Part shown: positions 18,226-29,650 of the stretch, piece by piece
Numbering within the stretch: the stretch's first letter is position 1
Layout of the letters: each line of letters begins with the position of its first letter
IMG/VR virus record: IMGVR_UViG_3300037189_014140
Span: 1-31,422 of that record
DNA length: 31,422 nucleotides
From: a virus
Reading direction: 5' to 3' (one strand)
The notes under the pieces: generated by a model
What the model was told of the DNA's origin: nothing
The model's database searches: none
What the model saw: the letters and a program-made list of their open reading frames with translations, nothing else
Made by a program: the position numbers and the translations under genes

Positions 18226-18792
18226 TTAGGTAGCAATAATGCCATGTGTTTTCATGGCGGTTAAAATAGAGATAATGGCTGTTCTTGCTTCAATATCAAC
18301 AATTGTTCCTCCAGTCGGATTAGCAATAGTTGGCTGTTGCAGTCCAATTACTTGAACATCATCAACCTTATAAACACCATCTACATTAATATCGCCACTG
18401 GCATTAACGCTAGGCGTTATTATATTCACCGCAGTTGTAGCAGAGATATTAATTGAAGGTTTAGTGCTGTCATTCAAAGCATCAATATTAATTGATCCAT
18501 TTTGTTTTAAATAAATCCTAGTTCCTGTTGAGGTAAATATTATTTTTTCTCCAGCTAATATAGAAACTGCATCATTAAGATTAAAAGGTAGAGCGTATTT
18601 TTGGGCGAATTCACCATTAAGAATTACGACAAGACAAGGGCTTCCAGCGGAGGGAAAAGAGTTTTCGCCCCATGCGTTATAAAGCACTGCGGTTTCTATC
18701 TCTTCAGAACCGGGCATCTCAACTTGAACTCTCAAAATAGGAAAAGTATTGTCTATTGCCCTTATAGTTCCTATGCGAATTATTTCTTCCAT
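18226..18792 (-). CDS. Baseplate spike protein (Mu gp45 / gpV type)
   Basis: 188 residues. An N-terminal OB-like part (RIGTIRAIDNTFPILRVQVE) and a Gly/Pro turn (NAWGENSFPSAGSPCLVVIL) are followed by a repetitive beta region (SINIDALNDSTKPSINISAT) as in gpV/gp45 spikes. It makes the trimeric central spike that pierces the outer membrane. The stop of the hub gene shares a base with its start (TAATG). Confidence 0.8.
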   Translation of the reverse strand: MEEIIRIGTIRAIDNTFPILRVQVEMPGSEEIETAVLYNAWGENSFPSAGSPCLVVILNGEFAQKYALPFNLNDAVSILAGEKIIFTSTGTRIYLKQNGSINIDALNDSTKPSINISATTAVNIITPSVNASGDINVDGVYKVDDVQVIGLQQPTIANPTGGTIVDIEARTAIISILTAMKTHGIIAT

Positions 18793-20045
18793 TATACTGG
18801 CCTCGTAACTAATAATGAATTGCTATTTACCCCTTTTTTACCTCTTTTTATCAAAGGCTTAAAAATAGAATGAGTATAAGAATATTCATCAATCAATGTA
18901 AGCTCTGTTATTGAACCTTCTGAATTACTCTGTTTGTATTTTACTGATTTAATCAAATATTCATTATCTAAATTATACCTATCATCTACAAGGTAAATTT
19001 TTTGGTTTGGCTTCCATAAAGGATTCAATTCATTTAAATTAAGAATGTCAAAAGTGCTGGCAATATTCTGTCTAAATCCAGCAACAATGCAGGTATAGGT
19101 AAAATCTTTGGCTTTCCTGATATTAAGTTCCCATTGCGCTCTTTCTTTACATAAAGGGTTTGTTAGGCTAGGAACGACTGCATAGAATTTGCGTGTTTGT
19201 CGCACATCTTCATCATAAACTGTTGCAGAGTAAGAAACGACATCATTTTGAATTGGATCACTAGCATTCTTTTCGGCATCAGTTCCCTTTTTTACAAAAA
19301 ATGGTGATCTAGAATTTGTCGCGCCAGTCCCTTTAGATGCAATAGTATATTCATAAAAGCGGTCATGTAAACTATCGTGCATTGATGCTGATATAATATT
19401 ATTGGTAATAGATGCTTTATCATCTAATATCCTCTGTAGAGTTGTCACAGTTGGTGAAGCTCCAATATTACTAATAACAATATTGCCATAACCGTCTGTG
19501 CTTAAAATTAATTGCCTTTTATCTGCAAGTTTTTTTATTAATTCATAGGATGACTCTCCTGGCGAAAATGAAATTCCCTCTGTAGTTTTGAAATCTTCTA
19601 TTAGGCCATAATCATTAATTACAGCAATTTGATCTTGTCCAAGCTTTCCTACTAATGGATTTGATAAACTATTTGTCGAAGTTACTCTATAGCCAACAAC
19701 TTTAAGTAATTTTCTAAGAATTTGTTGAAATCCAATTGGAGGCGTAAATGTTTTATTGGAAACGCGGCTATCTACAAAATCACAAGTCTTATCTCTTCCT
19801 TTAACTATCATTTGACTTGAATCAGCACTTTCAGAAATATCAATGCTATCAATATAGCCAGTCATAATATTCTGGTTATCAATTCTAACAATAAGCGATT
19901 GCCCTTTCTGGATAGTGTTAGTTATATCAGCAGGAATATTTGTCGTAAGAGTAAAATCATTCCCTAGCTGTTCTAAGCTATCGCAAATTTCACATGATTC
20001 CCAGCCAAGATAAGTATCTCCATTTATATCAATAGTAATAGCCAT
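18792..20045 (-). CDS. Baseplate hub protein (Mu gp44 / gpD type)
   Basis: 417 residues from ATG 20045; the frame extends to 20096 but those residues overlap the previous gene and are unlike the family. TIDINGDTYLGWESCEICDSL and the NIPADITNTIQKGQSLIVRI block form the first beta domain. IVKGRDKTCDFVDSRVSN followed by FQQILRKLLKVVGYRV are typical of gp44/gpD hubs. It links the tail tube to the spike. The order with gp43 and gp45 is exactly Mu's. Confidence 0.85.
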   Translation of the reverse strand: MAITIDINGDTYLGWESCEICDSLEQLGNDFTLTTNIPADITNTIQKGQSLIVRIDNQNIMTGYIDSIDISESADSSQMIVKGRDKTCDFVDSRVSNKTFTPPIGFQQILRKLLKVVGYRVTSTNSLSNPLVGKLGQDQIAVINDYGLIEDFKTTEGISFSPGESSYELIKKLADKRQLILSTDGYGNIVISNIGASPTVTTLQRILDDKASITNNIISASMHDSLHDRFYEYTIASKGTGATNSRSPFFVKKGTDAEKNASDPIQNDVVSYSATVYDEDVRQTRKFYAVVPSLTNPLCKERAQWELNIRKAKDFTYTCIVAGFRQNIASTFDILNLNELNPLWKPNQKIYLVDDRYNLDNEYLIKSVKYKQSNSEGSITELTLIDEYSYTHSIFKPLIKRGKKGVNSNSLLVTRPV

Positions 20046-20046
20046 A

Positions 20047-21255
20047 TTATCGAGATAATACATTAACATTGCCAGAGACAAAGCAAGGATCTTCAACAGC
20101 GTTTACATCGATAATCTCTTGAGCCCTTCTCGAATCTCCATAAATATTGTAGGCTAGGATACTTGAAGGAATAGAATTAGTGTAGATTATTCTATTAAAT
20201 GGAAGCCCTAATTGCAGACTTTCGAGATAGAACCTATTTTGAATCCGCATATTTTGCAGATTATAGTAAATATCTTCGTTGATTGTATTTGGATCAATGC
20301 TTTCAAAAGCAATATTTAATTGTCTTAAAATATTATTGATTTGTTCTTGCGAGGTATAAGTTATATTTATTGATGCTAAATAAGCTATATTTAGAAAAGC
20401 AACATTCGAAAAATTATTTGTTGCAATTCTATTCTGATTAATCTGGTCTGATTGCGGTGAGGAAGTATTCAATGTTGTTGGCGGAACTGTCTTTATTTTG
20501 CCATAAACAGAGCCAAATAAGTTGCCAAAATTATCAGTGATATTAGCTAAAGAGCCAAAAATTGCATTTAATCTTTGTGATAAATTAGTGGGGGTTTGAA
20601 TTAATTGAGTTAAAGAATTTTGGAAATTAGAAATATCATTAGTAATTGCTGCAACTTCGTCAGCAAAGCCATTGATTGTTGCCACAATATCATTAATATC
20701 ATTCGTGACTTCTTCTATCCCGTCTCTTAAATTGTTGAATTTTTCTATTAAACCATTAAATCCATCAATTGCACCAGCAAAATAACTTTCATTTTGTCCA
20801 GTTATTGTATCATAAATGCGACTCAGGTATCCAGCGTTACCTTGCTGAGATTTGGGATATTTATTTTCATCACTTTCCATAAAGGTTAGTGTGAAGCTGG
20901 TAAGACCATTTTCTGAAAGTAGGTTTGCTGATCGAGAACTTTGTGTAGGAACAACTTTTTTTCTTCCTAGTTCAGGGTGACTAAGGACTCCAAGCCCTTC
21001 CGTCTCTAAAACTTTTCTAAGATTTTTGATTGCTCTTTTGTAAGCAGAAGAAGTTGTTTCGTTTATTTCAACTTGAAGGGTATAAATACCAGAAATCTTG
21101 CCATTATCTTGAACATACCGAGTTGAAGACTGAGGATATTCATGGACAACAGTTTTACGACCAATTTGCGGCTCTTGAGATACCCTTGCATAAAAATTAG
21201 CGGTAGTTCCTCCTCTTTTATAACTAGCCTTGTAGAAACCATTTAAAACTGTCAT
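20047..21255 (-). CDS. DNA circularisation N-terminal domain protein (Mu gp43/N type)
   Basis: 402 residues. Residues 1-125 match the DNA-circularisation N-terminal domain: GFYKASYKRGGTTANFYARV, VVHEYPQSSTRYVQDNGK, and VLETEGLGVLSHPELGRK. The rest is helical with a long leucine/asparagine-rich central part (INDIVATINGFADEVAAI), as in Mu gpN. In Mu-like phages it is a tail/baseplate hub component that may be injected with DNA. It starts one base into the tape-measure stop (TAATG). Confidence 0.8.
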   Translation of the reverse strand: MTVLNGFYKASYKRGGTTANFYARVSQEPQIGRKTVVHEYPQSSTRYVQDNGKISGIYTLQVEINETTSSAYKRAIKNLRKVLETEGLGVLSHPELGRKKVVPTQSSRSANLLSENGLTSFTLTFMESDENKYPKSQQGNAGYLSRIYDTITGQNESYFAGAIDGFNGLIEKFNNLRDGIEEVTNDINDIVATINGFADEVAAITNDISNFQNSLTQLIQTPTNLSQRLNAIFGSLANITDNFGNLFGSVYGKIKTVPPTTLNTSSPQSDQINQNRIATNNFSNVAFLNIAYLASINITYTSQEQINNILRQLNIAFESIDPNTINEDIYYNLQNMRIQNRFYLESLQLGLPFNRIIYTNSIPSSILAYNIYGDSRRAQEIIDVNAVEDPCFVSGNVNVLSR

Positions 21256-22565
21256 TAATAGCCTCCTGCTGGTGTTAATGTTCCATCTTTTTTAACTGAA
21301 ACACCTGGGGAAGTCCTGGGCATCATCATTCCTGAAGGTGGATTAACAAATTCAATTACAACTTTCTGTTCGTTTGCCGGAGATGGAAAAGCGAATCTTA
21401 AATCAGCTCCTCTAGCAATACCTTCGTGGACTTTGCCTTCAGGATTTATTATAGCATTATTAAGTTCTAATAATTTAGTTAATCCTATAACGAATCCTTT
21501 CATGGCAGGATTTAGATCGTTTCCCACGATTGAAGTAGTTTTATTAAATTCATTAGCAAGCCTATTTTCTTCGCCTTGCAATCTATGAGAACTATCTAGC
21601 ATTTCTTTTCCATATTTATTTAAGATAACATCTGTAAAAAATGGTAAAATTTCAGCACTTTTAATTCCCTCTTTACTAGACATGGCCTGCATAAATGCGT
21701 CTGATTTTTGTTCTTCTGTGCCTATGTATTTTTTACCCTGTGATTCTTTCATGGCTATAAATGCTTCTACCATTTTTGCTCTACCACCAGGCATACTCTG
21801 AAGTTGTTGATTTACTTCTTGAGAATACAATCTTCCTCTCGAAAACATTTGTTGGACAGCATACATAGTACGCCCCATTTCTGGGCCGCTAGTCCCAACT
21901 AAAGATGAAAAGCCAGCAATCGCTTTGGTTGATTTCTTTGCCATTTCTGGGGAAACTACGCCAGTAGCTAATAATCCTTGATAAGATTTAGCTAAGTCAA
22001 CAAATTTTACCCCTAATTCATCGGCAGTTGTTCTTAGCCATTTTTCTTCTGACTTAACAGTTATTTCAGCTCCAGCTTGAGGCGCTGTTTTTATCAAAGC
22101 TCCTAATGCAGTTCTAAAATTTTCGATTTGAATTGCGGATTCGTGGACAGTCGATGGCAATTCTAAAAGTGCATCAAAAAAACGATAATATCCAGTTGCT
22201 TTCGCAACATTCGTAAATGTTGGGCCATTCCATGAATAATTATCTTTGGGCGTCTCTGGATTGTTATTTCTTGGAGGAGTCGGCGGCTTTCCACCTCCTT
22301 TACCATAGCCAAGCATATCCATTAGTTGCGGATTATATCCCATTCCCCCCATATAGCCAACTCTCATTTTTTCAGTATCGCTTTTGGCTGATTGAGAAAA
22401 TCCTACAATTTTGACGGGAGCTGGTAAACCTAATCTTGCATTTGGAGCATTTAAACCTAGCTGTTGAGACGAATTAATAGAAAGAGGAGAGTTGCCAATT
22501 CCCAATCTGGTATTGTTGCCTATTCTTTTAGAACCGAAATTAGTTCCGACAATCCTCCACCCCAT
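21255..22565 (-). CDS. Tape measure protein, main C-terminal part
   Basis: 436 residues when started at ATG 22565. IENFRTALGALIKTAPQAGA, AKSYQGLLATGVVSPEMAKK and RGRLYSQEVNQQLQSMPGG match the conserved helical core of tape measure proteins (lambda/TP901 type). Upstream, the frame is open and in phase with the 97-residue gene at 22593-22886, separated from it only by TAG 22593-22595 and 9 sense codons. The real product is therefore probably one chain of about 543 residues, made by read-through of or mutation at this amber codon. ATG 22565 has no Shine-Dalgarno. It sets the tail length. Confidence 0.8.
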   Translation of the reverse strand: MGWRIVGTNFGSKRIGNNTRLGIGNSPLSINSSQQLGLNAPNARLGLPAPVKIVGFSQSAKSDTEKMRVGYMGGMGYNPQLMDMLGYGKGGGKPPTPPRNNNPETPKDNYSWNGPTFTNVAKATGYYRFFDALLELPSTVHESAIQIENFRTALGALIKTAPQAGAEITVKSEEKWLRTTADELGVKFVDLAKSYQGLLATGVVSPEMAKKSTKAIAGFSSLVGTSGPEMGRTMYAVQQMFSRGRLYSQEVNQQLQSMPGGRAKMVEAFIAMKESQGKKYIGTEEQKSDAFMQAMSSKEGIKSAEILPFFTDVILNKYGKEMLDSSHRLQGEENRLANEFNKTTSIVGNDLNPAMKGFVIGLTKLLELNNAIINPEGKVHEGIARGADLRFAFPSPANEQKVVIEFVNPPSGMMMPRTSPGVSVKKDGTLTPAGGY

Positions 22566-22592
22566 CTCGTCAACATTATTGCCCCTTTTAGA

Positions 22593-22886
22593 CTAATAAG
22601 CTCTTCTATTTCTGCTTATTATTTCAGCACTTCTTACTGCGCTACGAGATAAATCTTCCGCATCTCTGAATTGTTTTTTAATTGCCGAGGTTCTGGATGA
22701 AGAACCTCCTCCAAACCCTCCCATCGAGGCTGATCCCTTTAAATTAAAGGAATTATTTAATTTTTTTAATGTCTTATCTAAATTTTTGGCAACTTTATCT
22801 ATTGATTCTAATTCTTTTTTAAATTTACGAGTTTGAGAAGAATATTTATCTAAGACCTCTAGGATATAGGTGATTTTGTCGCTCAT
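22593..22886 (-). CDS. Tape measure protein, N-terminal part (ends at an in-frame TAG)
   Basis: 97 residues: SDKITYILEVLDKYSSQTRK (2-21) and a coiled-coil segment (KKELESIDKVAKNLDKTLKK) match the N-terminus of Mu-type tape measure proteins, followed by a Gly/Ser linker. It ends at TAG 22593-22595. No other stop occurs before the 21255-22565 frame. The start overlaps the preceding stop as ATGA. It looks like one half of a split gene, not an independent one. Confidence 0.7.
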   Translation of the reverse strand: MSDKITYILEVLDKYSSQTRKFKKELESIDKVAKNLDKTLKKLNNSFNLKGSASMGGFGGGSSSRTSAIKKQFRDAEDLSRSAVRSAEIISRNRRAY

Positions 22887-23074
22887 CTAGCCCCCTTTAT
22901 TTTAGTCGCTTTTTTCTCAGCCTTGGCACGTTCTTTATTTGAATCTTTTACCGTTATGTCATACCATTCATAATATTCAGGAAAGCGCATATTGATAACA
23001 TCATTATAAGTAAACGATCCTTGATTATATCTCAAAAAATCAAAGACTAACTCTCTAAATTTTCGCCGTTCTCC
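22883..23074 (-). CDS. Frameshift extension of the tail assembly chaperone (GT part)
   Basis: A frame without its own start, in the -1 phase relative to the 23047-23388 gene, runs from the slippery site A_AAA_AAG (minus strand, 23080-23074) to TGA 22883, adding about 63 residues (GERRKFRELVFDFLRYNQG ...). It holds an aromatic block (INMRFPEYYEWYDITVKD) typical of the T domain of Mu/lambda-type chaperones. The stop overlaps the tape-measure start as ATGA. The full frameshift product would be about 168 residues, 105 shared plus 63. It should bind the tape measure. Confidence 0.75.
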   Translation of the reverse strand, partial: GERRKFRELVFDFLRYNQGSFTYNDVINMRFPEYYEWYDITVKDSNKERAKAEKKATKIKGAR

Positions 23075-23388
23075 TTTTTTGGTAAGAAAGGCGAGAAATC
23101 TAAAAAACTTGCCGCATATTCCTCCAAAAGAACGACTGAAGATCTATAATCAAAATCACTAATTTTGATTTTTCCGTCAAGATTAGCTGGAGTAATATAG
23201 CCTTTAGAGCAAAGAAATTCTAAAGCTTTAAGTCTTTTCCCGCTATAAAGAGTATTTTCCACTTCTTCTGCATCGCAAATTTTAAGGCAATAAAGAGTGA
23301 CTTCTTTTGTTTTCTTAAGTTCTCCTTTTGCGTCAAAATAGCTTGCTTCGGAAAGAAGAGTATAATCTTTTTTAGTGATTAGTTCCAT
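23047..23388 (-). CDS. Tail assembly chaperone, unshifted form (Mu gp41-like, G)
   Basis: 113 residues. LITKKDYTLLSEASYFDAKG opens a mixed fold with a closing FLPKKENGENLES. It lies between tube and tape measure, where tail assembly chaperones are always found. Near its end, CCA AAA AAG contains the heptamer A AAA AAG in the right phase for -1 slippage, the same type as in other phage chaperone pairs. The GGAG just downstream of the slip site is unlikely to be a normal start. Ends in TAG. Confidence 0.75.
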   Translation of the reverse strand: MELITKKDYTLLSEASYFDAKGELKKTKEVTLYCLKICDAEEVENTLYSGKRLKALEFLCSKGYITPANLDGKIKISDFDYRSSVVLLEEYAASFLDFSPFLPKKENGENLES

Positions 23389-23393
23389 GGTGA

Positions 23394-23795
23394 TTAGTTA
23401 GTTAGGGTGATAGTAGAACCTTGCCAAGTTAAAGAAATATTCCCATCAGGAGTTTCCATAACTTCGGGATCATTCATTAGAGAAGCTGATTTGATTTGCT
23501 GAGTTTGTCCTGCGCCGTCTGGTTCAAAGGTTAAAATATTAGCGCCAGGATTTGATTTCCAAGTTTTAATAAGAATTCTTGGATCAGCATCAGAATCTAA
23601 ATCTTGAGTGATTAAGTCAAATGAAGCTTCAGAAATATTAGTTTCTAGATTTTGAGCTGGAACTGGAAGAACTGTACGACCAGAAACTTGTACTCTAGTT
23701 GTAGTTTCTCCATAGCCGCCTTTTACTTTAAAAGAACTCTGAACAAAAGGGATAATGTTTCCATTAACATAGATTTTCTTTGGGGTGAAAGACAT
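23394..23795 (-). CDS. Tail tube protein (Mu gp40-like)
   Basis: 133 residues, almost all beta: PKKIYVNGNIIPFVQSSFKV, TTRVQVSGRTVLPVPAQNLE and ISLTWQGSTITLTN, the layout of gp40/gpM and Hcp-like tail tubes. It follows the sheath gene and precedes the chaperone, as in Mu. Hexamers of it stack to make the inner tube. Confidence 0.8.
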   Translation of the reverse strand: MSFTPKKIYVNGNIIPFVQSSFKVKGGYGETTTRVQVSGRTVLPVPAQNLETNISEASFDLITQDLDSDADPRILIKTWKSNPGANILTFEPDGAGQTQQIKSASLMNDPEVMETPDGNISLTWQGSTITLTN

Positions 23796-23802
23796 ATCTT
23801 AA

Positions 23803-25338
23803 TTACAAATTAGGTGTTAAATCAAAGTCAAATGTTTCTAGTTGACCCATTAAATTAAATGTCATTGAACCGCTAACTGAGCCAGTAGAAGTATTGACAT
23901 TGACAATTAAATTTTCTTGGAACTCCGCTAATAAAGGTGGGGAGCCTTGCAAAACTGCATAATTCGGACCAGACAGATCTTGCCACAAACCTACAATATA
24001 AGCTCTAATGCTTTTTTCAGTAGCAACGCGGATCAAAGGATTATTTGGATCAACACCAGCAGTAAGAGCTGATTGAGAATAATAATTTTTTAGATTTTTA
24101 AAAATATACTCTCTTGCAGTAGTGGCGCAGTCAGATTTATTTAGATTTTTATAAGTATATCCGTCGGCAGTGGGAGTCTCTAGTTTATATGCTGTCATCC
24201 AAAGAGGATTGGTTACTGTCACCGTGCCGCTTTCATCTAAACTTAGTGTAGATCCGCCTAAATCAGCTAATCCCTGAGTTTCATCAAGAGTAAATCCCGT
24301 CCCCGCAGGCATAATCGCTAGATCAATAAGTTTCATGTTGTGATAAGGAATGCCTGCCAAAAAAGCTCCGCCTCTGTTATTAGGGCTTTGCATATAAGCA
24401 CTAATAGAAGCACCAGCTCTAAATCTCAAAGCCCTGATAGCTGCAACATAAGAAGAAACAACATAATCCAATTCAGCCAATGCGCCGCCTTTCCAAGCAG
24501 AATCATCAACTAATTTATTATTAAGATAAGTAATTACTTTGGAGGCTAACGTAGCAGGAGCTAACGCAGTTTGAGCGTTAGCATAAGTATCAGTTTTACA
24601 TACGATTCCAATTCCGTCAAGAATTGCATTAGGAATATTAAATTTGCTTTCCAAATGAGTTTTAATGGTTGACAAGAAAGCTACTGGAGCAATAATGTCA
24701 TAGCGAGAAGCATCAATACTAGAAAGAACTCCAGTTAATGATGGGTTAGTTGCCCCACCAGAAAAAGCAATTATAGTTGAAGTAACTCCGCTTGGTAGAA
24801 ACTCAATTCTTAAAGTAATTGTATTTCCTTCGGTTCCAGTATTTTTTGCTGTGAAAGTTACTGTGCCACCTGAATTTATTGCAGTTACTGGAGAGTTTAA
24901 GTCTGCGTTTACCGCTGCCGCAATATCATCTCCAATTGTTGTAGGAGTTGAAGAAGTAGTAGTCGCAATACCATAGCGATTTTTAGTATAAGAGCCTACT
25001 GTTAAATAAAAAGTTCCAGCAGCGGGAGTGCTTACAGCCATAGCAACTGAGCCAGTTGCTGCAACGCCACTTCCATTATCATCAACAATGATAGCGGCCA
25101 ATTTAATATTTGGAGCGACTTGTTTAAAAATATTAATCATTAATGCGCCAATCGAACCAGCCCCGCAAAGTTCATTTGCAGCAGTAAGTCCATTGGGAAC
25201 TTCAGAAACAAGAGCGCCAGAAGTATAGCTACCACTAGAGGTTCCTTGCGCCAGAATCAAAGGCTTCCGAGCCGAGGAGGCAATATTTTGGAGCGATGAT
25301 ACTAAATTAAAAGTAGAAATAGGAGAAGAGCCAGCCAT
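23803..25338 (-). CDS. Tail sheath protein (Mu gp39/gpL type)
   Basis: 511 residues. The N-terminus (KPLILAQGTSSGSYTSGAL) and the VDDNGSGVAATGSVAMAVSTP domain match sheaths of Mu-like phages. Other conserved parts are VVSSYVAAIRALRFRAGASI, RGGAFLAGIPYHNMKLIDLA and the C-terminal TGSVSGSMTFNLMGQLETFD. Contraction of the sheath drives the tube through the envelope. The size is normal for the family. It ends 8 bases before the tube gene. Confidence 0.9.
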   Translation of the reverse strand: MAGSSPISTFNLVSSLQNIASSARKPLILAQGTSSGSYTSGALVSEVPNGLTAANELCGAGSIGALMINIFKQVAPNIKLAAIIVDDNGSGVAATGSVAMAVSTPAAGTFYLTVGSYTKNRYGIATTTSSTPTTIGDDIAAAVNADLNSPVTAINSGGTVTFTAKNTGTEGNTITLRIEFLPSGVTSTIIAFSGGATNPSLTGVLSSIDASRYDIIAPVAFLSTIKTHLESKFNIPNAILDGIGIVCKTDTYANAQTALAPATLASKVITYLNNKLVDDSAWKGGALAELDYVVSSYVAAIRALRFRAGASISAYMQSPNNRGGAFLAGIPYHNMKLIDLAIMPAGTGFTLDETQGLADLGGSTLSLDESGTVTVTNPLWMTAYKLETPTADGYTYKNLNKSDCATTAREYIFKNLKNYYSQSALTAGVDPNNPLIRVATEKSIRAYIVGLWQDLSGPNYAVLQGSPPLLAEFQENLIVNVNTSTGSVSGSMTFNLMGQLETFDFDLTPNL

Positions 25339-25591: not shown

Positions 25592-25667
25592 GAGCGAATA
25601 AAACCATTGTAAAATAAGTCTGCAACTATTATCTTTGAATAGTATTCTTTTAATATTATTCGGCATT

Positions 25668-27143
25668 ATGGACTTCTTAGACCCTAGATTTTTAGCACAA
25701 ATTGCGCAGGAAAGCGCCGATGATACTCTTAAAGGGGATTTTAGAGAATTTTTTAAAAAATTCGCTTATCCTTTTATTCACCCAGGAAATAAATTGGTTG
25801 ATACTTGGAGCATTGATTGTCTATGTGAATATGCTCAAGCTTTAGCTGATGGGGATATAAAAAGATTAATTATAAATATTCCGCCAGGACTTCTAAAATC
25901 CACAATCTTTTCTTCTGCTCTTCCAGCTTACATTCTTGGTAGGACTCCTCATGAGAAGATATTTGCAATTTCAAATAAAGAAAATTTAGTTAATCGTAAT
26001 ATTGGCTGGACTAAGAGAATTACTGAAAGCCTAGATTTTCAGAGGATGTTTCCCGAATTTAAACCAGATGATAGAAAAAATACAGAAACTCATTTTAGAA
26101 CTACTAAAGGTGGGGAAATGCAAGGTTTTGCTACAGAAGGCAATATTACTGGTGAACGAGCTAATTTTCTATTCTTTGATGATTATATGTCTTCGACAAT
26201 GATACAAGCCCCAACAACCAATATAAGACTTTTAGAAAAGTTTGACGATACCTTTGAGCGAAGAGCAGATGTTATTAGGAATTGTATCGCAGTTATTGAG
26301 CAAAGGCTTGGTGTAAGTGATTTAACAGGATTTTTACTTAGAACTAGAAAAGGCGAATACGAGCATTTATGCCTTCCTGTAGAATTTGAAGAAAAGAAGT
26401 TTTTTTATATTGGTAAATTTCAAAAAGAAGTTGAAAAGGGTGATTTATTGGCTCCAGAATTATTAACAAGAGAAAAGGTCGATCTTCTCAAAAATCGCAT
26501 TGTTGATACCGAAACAGGGATTGCTAATGGTAAAAAAGTTTTCTTTACACAGTATATGCAAAAACCAGTTGCAGAAGGTGGCAACATGGTTGACATGAAA
26601 TGGTTCCAGAGATTTGATTTAGCTAACTTACCTTATATGCAATTTGATTCTGTTTATGTAAGCGCGGATACAGCCCAAAAAGTAAAAGAAATCAATGACC
26701 CTTCAGGCTTTTTAAAATTCGGAGTAAAGGGAAGTTCTGTTTATTTGATTGATAGATACAACAAAAGGGCAATATACCAAGATACAAAAGCTAATTTATT
26801 AATGTTTGCAGCAAAATTTCCCCCAGCTAATTCTATATTAATTGAGGATGCAAACACTGGGTCATCTTTGATTCAAGAGCTTTCAAGAGAATGCAGTTAT
26901 GGTATAGTGCCTATCTCTCACAATGGAGTTAAAAAAGAAATTAGATTTTATAATTCAACTGGCGCAATGGCAAACGGCAATATTTTTCTTCCTAAAGATG
27001 CAACTTGGTTATTTGATTTTGAAGAATCGTTAATGCAATTTCCAAATAATGCCCATGATGAAGATCCAGACTGCATAGCTCAATTCTTAACTTGGTTTAA
27101 AAACAATTCTATCGACTGGGACAAGTTATTTAGCGTGTTTTAA
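25668..27143 (+). CDS. terL: Terminase large subunit
   Basis: 491 residues from ATG 25668; an upstream ATG at 25635 adds 11 hydrophobic residues and is less likely. The ATPase has a Walker A-like LIINIPPGLLKST (68-80) and Walker B NFLFFDDYM (167-175). The RuvC-like nuclease shows SADTAQ (Asp334), LIEDANTGSS (Glu393/Asp394) and a late Asp near 465-467. It packages DNA into the capsid using ATP and cuts the concatemer. It is on the plus strand in the middle of a minus-strand late region and meets the next gene end to end with 4 bases of overlap. Confidence 0.9.
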   Translation: MDFLDPRFLAQIAQESADDTLKGDFREFFKKFAYPFIHPGNKLVDTWSIDCLCEYAQALADGDIKRLIINIPPGLLKSTIFSSALPAYILGRTPHEKIFAISNKENLVNRNIGWTKRITESLDFQRMFPEFKPDDRKNTETHFRTTKGGEMQGFATEGNITGERANFLFFDDYMSSTMIQAPTTNIRLLEKFDDTFERRADVIRNCIAVIEQRLGVSDLTGFLLRTRKGEYEHLCLPVEFEEKKFFYIGKFQKEVEKGDLLAPELLTREKVDLLKNRIVDTETGIANGKKVFFTQYMQKPVAEGGNMVDMKWFQRFDLANLPYMQFDSVYVSADTAQKVKEINDPSGFLKFGVKGSSVYLIDRYNKRAIYQDTKANLLMFAAKFPPANSILIEDANTGSSLIQELSRECSYGIVPISHNGVKKEIRFYNSTGAMANGNIFLPKDATWLFDFEESLMQFPNNAHDEDPDCIAQFLTWFKNNSIDWDKLFSVF

Positions 27144-27712: not shown

Positions 27713-29059
27713 TCAAACAGCTTCGTCAACATCTCCTTCGATTTTCATAATACTTGTATCGAAACCTTCATTGTCAATAACATCAAAATCAAAGTGCCTG
27801 AAGGCAAATAAATCATCTGGCTCAACTGCATCGGCTTGGTTAGACCAACTAGAGGCTTGGAAGCCGTAATAATGAACATAATAAGACCCATTAAATGCTT
27901 TCATTCCATTGCCTATTGGCGTTAGTCGAGAATATGAATTATCACTTAGATTACTTGTAGGAGCAAAGCCTAATAATGATTTATAAATATAAGGCTTATA
28001 TGCTGCGCCAGCATCTCTTGTTAAAATGTATGATAGCTCATCATTAGTTGCTCCACATGGAAGAAAAAGATAAATATTAACATTTTGATAAGATTGCTCT
28101 CTAATTGCTAATCCTGGTGCATTATAACTAACCGCATCCGTTCTATTAAAATTATTTTTATTTGTTGCCTCATCATCTAAAATAACAATAACCCATTTCG
28201 CAGATTGTCCGCCAGTAGGAAGACTTTCAAAGAATTTAGTCGCTCTTTCATAATCAATAAATCCCGCTATATTTGGGAATGTTCTTACTCCGATAGTGCC
28301 TTGTGCTGGACTATCTGGCGTTGAGGTAATTGCGTAAGTAAAAGTTGTCGTTGTTGGAACTGTTAAAATTGTTTTATATCCATTATAACCAGTTTTATAT
28401 TCGTAGATTTGTGTAATCGTGCCAGTTGCAGGAGTTGCGGGGTTTCCACTTATTCTAAACATAAAAGTTCTTGAATTAAGAAGAAGTTGCATCTGCATTG
28501 GTTTTGAGCCATTTGAAACACCATCCTCTGTAATGCCTTGAACTGTATAAGTAAAGGTTGTAGTGGTGGCAACGCTATTAAGGACAAAATTACCATTATA
28601 GTTAAGCTGCCTTACTCCACTAATTTGAACTTCAATATTAGCATCAAATACTAAGCCATGTGGGCTTTTGGTTGTTACTGTTGCGGTAGTCCCGCTAATT
28701 ACAATTGATTCAATGAAAATTACTGGAGTTTTCCAAACTAAAGTGTGAACGCCATTGTAAGAAATTGGAGTTGCACCCGATAATTCAACATCAGATTGAT
28801 TTTTAATGAGATTGTGATCAGTTGCAGTAATCGCTAAAGCATTTGTACCATTACGAGTCAATGATGATACTGTAATTGGAGTTTTCGCACCTTTAACCAG
28901 AACTCGATTTCCAGCGATAAGCCCGTGCGCTGCTGAAGTTACAGCAGTAACTACTCCTGCACTTCTACTCAAAGAAGTGACGGTATAATTGGTGGTAAAA
29001 TCAGAGGTATATTTAGGTAATACGCCTTTGAGTTGGTTTATGATTTCTTGTGCTTGCAT
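27713..29059 (-). CDS. Tail terminator-like neck protein (Mu gp37 type) with repeated beta modules
   Basis: 448 residues. The far C-terminal part (KWVIVILDDEATNKNNFNRT, then YQNVNIYLFLPCGATND and LTRDAGAAYKPYIYKSLLGF) has the fold type of gp37/tail terminator. The N-terminal 180 residues carry three beta modules with 'HGL' or 'HNL' at 45-47, 82-84 and 134-136, like the inserts of baseplate J. The protein is far longer than usual gp37 (near 180). It is preceded by the lipoprotein gene, whose TAG is in frame 9 codons before this ATG. The terminator call is partly by context. Confidence 0.55.
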   Translation of the reverse strand: MQAQEIINQLKGVLPKYTSDFTTNYTVTSLSRSAGVVTAVTSAAHGLIAGNRVLVKGAKTPITVSSLTRNGTNALAITATDHNLIKNQSDVELSGATPISYNGVHTLVWKTPVIFIESIVISGTTATVTTKSPHGLVFDANIEVQISGVRQLNYNGNFVLNSVATTTTFTYTVQGITEDGVSNGSKPMQMQLLLNSRTFMFRISGNPATPATGTITQIYEYKTGYNGYKTILTVPTTTTFTYAITSTPDSPAQGTIGVRTFPNIAGFIDYERATKFFESLPTGGQSAKWVIVILDDEATNKNNFNRTDAVSYNAPGLAIREQSYQNVNIYLFLPCGATNDELSYILTRDAGAAYKPYIYKSLLGFAPTSNLSDNSYSRLTPIGNGMKAFNGSYYVHYYGFQASSWSNQADAVEPDDLFAFRHFDFDVIDNEGFDTSIMKIEGDVDEAV

Positions 29060-29086
29060 TGCGTAGTGAGCAATTAAATTATTTTT

Positions 29087-29650
29087 CTATTTTCTTTCTT
29101 TTTCTAATTCGTCAAAAATAGCTTTAGTAGCTTCTTCTGATTTATTAATTGATTCTCTAGCAAGATTCTGATTTTTCAATTTCTCAAGCGTTGAAGTCCT
29201 GGATTCTTTTAAGAATTTAGCGTAATCATTTGGCTTCAATGTCATCATCACATAAAGGTTTCCATCTTTTGCAAGATAAGTGCTTGTACGCGTCATGCCA
29301 CTGATAGGAATATTATTGACGACTTCTTTTGTCGCTTGAGTAAAAAATTCTTCAACATCATCACCCTGATTCACATTTGCGGAACGAAGAGCATTCTTAG
29401 TGATACGGGTAATTTCAGAATAAATTTTTGTTGCTAAATTTCCTTTTGCGTCCAATTCAGCAGCGGCTAATTGATATTTAATTCCACCCCTGCTTTCTGG
29501 TGCAACACCTATACCATTCAGCTCATCAGTAGAGTTAAACCATTCTGGCAAATCTAATTCAGATTTATTAACAAAGTTTTTTTTTGCAGAACATGCAGCC
29601 ACACATGATACCAATAAAAGAGTAAGTGCGATAGATATATATTTTTTCAT
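29087..29650 (-). CDS. LPP20-like lipoprotein in the head-tail cluster
   Basis: 187 residues. The N-terminus MKKYISIALTLLLVSC has a good lipobox (LVSC, Cys16); Cys20 in VAAC is another candidate. The mature body begins DLPEWF and has ELNGIGVAPESRGG and a helix-strand pattern (QLAAAELDAKGNLATKI, then LYVMMTLKPNDY) like LPP20-type lipoproteins of bacteria. Its role in the phage is unknown; outer-membrane attachment suggests exclusion or a change of host surface. Ends in TAG 29087-29089. Confidence 0.6.
   Translation of the reverse strand: MKKYISIALTLLLVSCVAACSAKKNFVNKSELDLPEWFNSTDELNGIGVAPESRGGIKYQLAAAELDAKGNLATKIYSEITRITKNALRSANVNQGDDVEEFFTQATKEVVNNIPISGMTRTSTYLAKDGNLYVMMTLKPNDYAKFLKESRTSTLEKLKNQNLARESINKSEEATKAIFDELEKERK

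Follow-up and report, generated by a model that had tools for sequence, protein, structure and literature searches.

How is an in-frame TAG that cuts the tape-measure protein (TMP) gene of a phage in two to be understood: as a codon that is decoded, as the border between two cooperating proteins, or as damage to the gene or to its record? The window in which this question arises is a whole virus record of 31,422 bases, which is possibly a fragment. The coordinates, frame and sizes that the first-pass annotation had given for the two pieces of the gene proved exact. The features concerned are as follows.

18792-20096: second hub gene
20047-21255, minus strand: baseplate hub gene, DNA circularisation-like, intact and directly downstream of the TMP gene (PF07157, E 4e-11; phrog_184, E 2e-40)
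21255-22592, minus strand: remainder of the TMP frame, 445 codons past the TAG and then TAA, with matches to TMP_3 and to the TMP of the relative L012
22523-22576, minus strand: out-of-frame ORF of 18 codons, whose ATG at 22576 has the only good Shine-Dalgarno sequence past the TAG (AAAAGGGG)
22593-22595, minus strand: in-frame TAG in the context GCT TAT TAG TCT; every aligned relative has a sense codon or a gap here
22593-22886, minus strand: N-terminal piece of the TMP, 97 aa from ATG 22886 to the TAG, with a strong Shine-Dalgarno sequence
22887-23388, minus strand: tail assembly chaperone gene with a conserved -1 overlap; the 0-frame ends at 23047 and the -1 frame reaches the TMP start
23394-23795: putative tube gene, assigned by position only
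23803-25338: sheath gene, which gives the context of a contractile-tail phage

The interrupted gene and its surroundings

The N-terminal piece is preceded by the Shine-Dalgarno sequence AAAGGGGG, 5 nt before ATG 22886. Past the TAG, nine sense codons lead to ATG 22565, from which 436 aa extend to the TAA ending at 21255, and the product with the TAG read through would have 543 aa. Frame 0 is favoured by codon usage before and after the TAG, although the signal weakens around 22646-22616. The first 40 residues align with the beginning of the TMP of L012 (63% identity, E 4e-13), an uninterrupted ORF whose residues 224-506 are matched by the main piece (34% identity, E 3e-37). The main piece also hits Pfam TMP_3 with E 1.2e-9 and 38.6 bits, just under the gathering score of 41, as well as several tape-measure families of PHROG, the lowest E being 1.1e-8. 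The gene lies between the tail chaperones and the baseplate hub genes, as expected for a tape measure. Because both halves match one ORF and the TMP genes of the relatives are uninterrupted, the pieces are judged from their homology to have been one gene originally, which agrees with the earlier proposal that they are parts of one tape measure; the continuous chain is found in the relatives, and in this record it is broken by the TAG.

The gene neighbours, including the baseplate wedge proteins also encoded in the window, fit a contractile-tail phage. The upstream chaperone gene (23388-22887) resembles the frameshifted chaperones of the lambda G/GT type in its -1 overlap before the TMP gene and its slippery site A AAA AAG, and frameshifting is predicted from the sequence; this likeness, however, concerns the neighbouring gene and not the TAG of the TMP gene. 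The overlap is shared by L002, L003, L004, L005, L009, L012, L015, L016, L019, L025 and L029. Where the window has its textbook slippery site, most relatives have ACA AAG TAG, with the 0-frame stop right after AAG, and L016 and L029 are without that TAG. The large terminase gene (25635-27143, plus strand) is flanked on either side by structural genes that run in the other direction; no gene of the window is better conserved, its identity to the counterpart in L024 being 81%.

Apart from the TMP gene, the conserved genes of the window are free of internal stops, and among 234 copies of these other genes in the relatives, a count that leaves out Baseplate_J, none is broken. Widespread gene decay was also considered; since all the other conserved genes are intact, it is unlikely and was rejected.

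The tape-measure gene in related phages

Relatives were gathered from IMG/VR by the sheath and then by a TMP profile and a hub profile. The close set consists of 17 distinct relatives with both ends of the TMP gene on the contig, most of them with a sheath 52-69% identical, and in all 17 the TMP is encoded without interruption in one ORF (475-704 aa). The TMP is likewise in one ORF (778-1110 aa) in about ten relatives at a greater distance, recognised by BLAST, and about a dozen further distant ones have a single ORF of 509-907 aa, which is called TMP only by its position before the hub gene. The sole exception is the distant relative L186 (L186:156-1842), which has an apparent TMP frameshift of its own near 1183-1200; after it, the first TMP frame continues into the hub gene. 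The TMP of L159 was not judged, as the contig edge cuts the gene; this edge (L159:1-60) translates as MCIRDS and is presumably leftover sequencing-adapter sequence. Of the sheath relatives, L042 (JALREU010000017.1; 34% identity), a contig of a Rickettsiales metagenome-assembled genome, is the only one confirmed in a genome collection; it points no more than faintly to a host group and is too little to name a host.

The 543-aa read-through product aligns across the close set at 21-32% identity, and the position of the TAG falls in a fast-changing, variable linker. Under two of the three alignment settings Q, E, K or R mostly stand opposite the TAG, and the third disagrees. The homologues were compared as had been proposed, and each one aligned shows either sense or a gap at this position. 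Homologues making two separate proteins, the finding that the first-pass annotation had set against its own reading, were looked for, and a TMP split by TAG was found in none of the 17 close or about 20 more distant relatives. A near-identical genome was not found either with peptide patterns from the TMP and hub of the window, with two DNA patterns, or by searching phage and plasmid DNA. Within the collections searched, and judged against relatives that are only 21-32% identical in the TMP, the stop appears to be private to this record.

An indel at the TAG was also considered, because the +1 frame just past it (SLKGAIM...GGG) resembles SLKNAIV...GGG of the relatives. As a control, detours out of frame were placed arbitrarily at other points of the TMP, and they gained up to 9.4 bits of profile score against 8.3 bits here. 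Since such detours score as high, the indel reading was rejected.

Decoding, restart and read-through

TAG terminates eight of the 48 listed ORFs, the N-terminal TMP piece among them. It had been stated earlier that the extra frame behind the other TAG-ended genes is very short; this holds for six of the other seven, in which read-through adds 2-22 codons, but fails for the TAG at 29087, where 457 codons follow and extend into the next gene. Read-through there would join an LPP20-like lipoprotein (a weak match) and a conserved protein of 448 aa, which the relatives encode as a separate protein. The junction at 29059-29089 (minus strand) consists of a TAG, nine sense codons and an in-frame ATG, the same geometry as that of the TMP break, so the geometry alone means little.

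The search for an amber-suppressor tRNA (anticodon CUA) came back empty: the window and 45 related loci have no tRNA of any kind, and none of the six tRNAs of 12 whole related records is a CUA tRNA. A suppressor tRNA might nevertheless be supplied by the host or by a missing part of the genome, so that the TAG would be read as an amino acid and a full-length TMP made; the window may be a genome fragment, the 445 open codons past the TAG have coding-like codon use, and under two of the three alignment settings mostly Q, E, K or R stand opposite the TAG. Against this stand the empty tRNA searches, the fact that the TAG is kept in no relative, and the fusion at 29087 that efficient decoding would produce, and we regard suppression as quite unlikely. 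A small chance of about the same order is given to an amber-suppressing host or a low read-through that is tolerated, in which case functional TMP, and hence tail assembly, would depend on the decoding state of the host. Recoded phages have their TAG codons in late genes, to which the TMP gene belongs, and the in-frame TAG of this structural gene is a likeness to the code-15 phages (crAss-like, Lak), in which TAG would be glutamine or another residue. Unlike those, the conserved genes of this window have one in-frame TAG across 31 kb, TAG also terminates seven other ORFs, and no suppressor tRNA was found in the window or in the related records searched. Table 11 strongly shortens the median gene of recoded phages, and a CUA suppressor tRNA is found in about half of the code-15 phages (PMC11210395). 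Such shortening is absent from the window, code 15 would likewise produce the gene fusion at 29087, and the marks of this code, namely many in-frame TAGs, TAG unused as a terminator and a CUA tRNA, are all missing from the window, which may be a fragment; code 15 is therefore very unlikely. The earlier suggestion that TAG is decoded as an amino acid fails every available test, and all routes to a functional decoding of the TAG, taken together, are unlikely.

As noted in the first-pass annotation, ATG 22565 is without a usable Shine-Dalgarno sequence; AAAAGGGG lies 16 nt upstream of it and serves ATG 22576, from which frame 1 translates as MLTRWGGGLSELISVLKE and then stops, a predicted dead-end restart. 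Since past the TAG a good ribosome site is present only in front of this out-of-frame ATG, a two-protein gene is unlikely. The two frames are open and closely consecutive, as they would be if 97 aa and 436 aa from ATG 22565 cooperated as a split tape measure, but no relative has the gene split in this way, 436 aa alone are fewer than in any close relative, and in TP901-1 the N-terminal 154 and the C-terminal 60 residues of the TMP are both required, the loss of 30 residues from either end leading to aberrant assembly (PMC5099701). A conserved second start with its own ribosome-binding site, as a natural split would have, is absent, and we hold the split to be very improbable. Tape-measure protein is required in low copy number per tail, so low-level programmed read-through of the TAG might set its amount. 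A TMP hexamer has been predicted in lambda, T5 and SPP1 (PMC4493119). The chaperone gene just upstream would already use recoding, as predicted from its slippery site, and a frame of coding character continues past the stop as in known programmed read-through. In contrast to such systems, however, the TAG is conserved in no relative, its context (CTTAT TAG T) is of a kind that lowers read-through in E. coli, although the true host may differ, and the 96 nt from the TAG onward show no unusual RNA fold (z -0.74). Reporters in E. coli gave less read-through with T downstream and with ATTAT upstream, the mean for TAG being 0.01-0.8% (PMC11126739), and +4U has a lowering effect as well (PMC5289835). 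The earlier proposal that the TAG is read through found no support in tRNA, context or RNA structure, and programmed read-through receives a very low probability.

A nonsense lesion or a base error

The TAG is very probably a single nonsense lesion, either a real mutation or a base error, in the otherwise intact TMP gene of one metagenome-assembled contig. A defective particle, which was among the options raised at the outset, or a base error is what remains after the other explanations fail, and of the two a real loss-of-function mutation is somewhat more likely than a wrong consensus base. If the base is real, translation from ATG 22886 would give the 97-aa fragment and then stop; with no in-frame restart site, no full TMP would be made and the tail tube could not assemble. 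We infer that no decoding would rescue the TMP, and by analogy with TP901-1 the particles would lose their tails unless an intact sister phage complemented them. If the base is wrong, the TMP gene would be normal.

The independent apparent frameshift in the TMP of L186 indicates that such lesions occur in these collections. On the other side, the healthy rest of the genome and the normal codon statistics downstream imply that a lesion would be recent or unreal, and a tolerated TAG would also fit them. Furthermore, no copy in the 234-copy count is broken, so neither mutation nor base error is common in the relatives; scanning many windows will select such rare cases.

The situation resembles the amber mutations of phage tail genes, in that an essential structural gene, continuous in the relatives, is interrupted by an in-frame TAG while the genome is otherwise intact. 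Unlike the classical amber mutants, which were isolated on suppressor hosts, it was seen once in a metagenome contig, and a base error is possible. The TAG is most likely an ordinary nonsense lesion or base error. If it were truly decoded as sense, tail assembly gated by the decoding of a stop codon would have a rare natural example here. A lone in-frame stop in one metagenome contig, however, is to be presumed a lesion or a base error until relatives, tRNAs and reads disagree.
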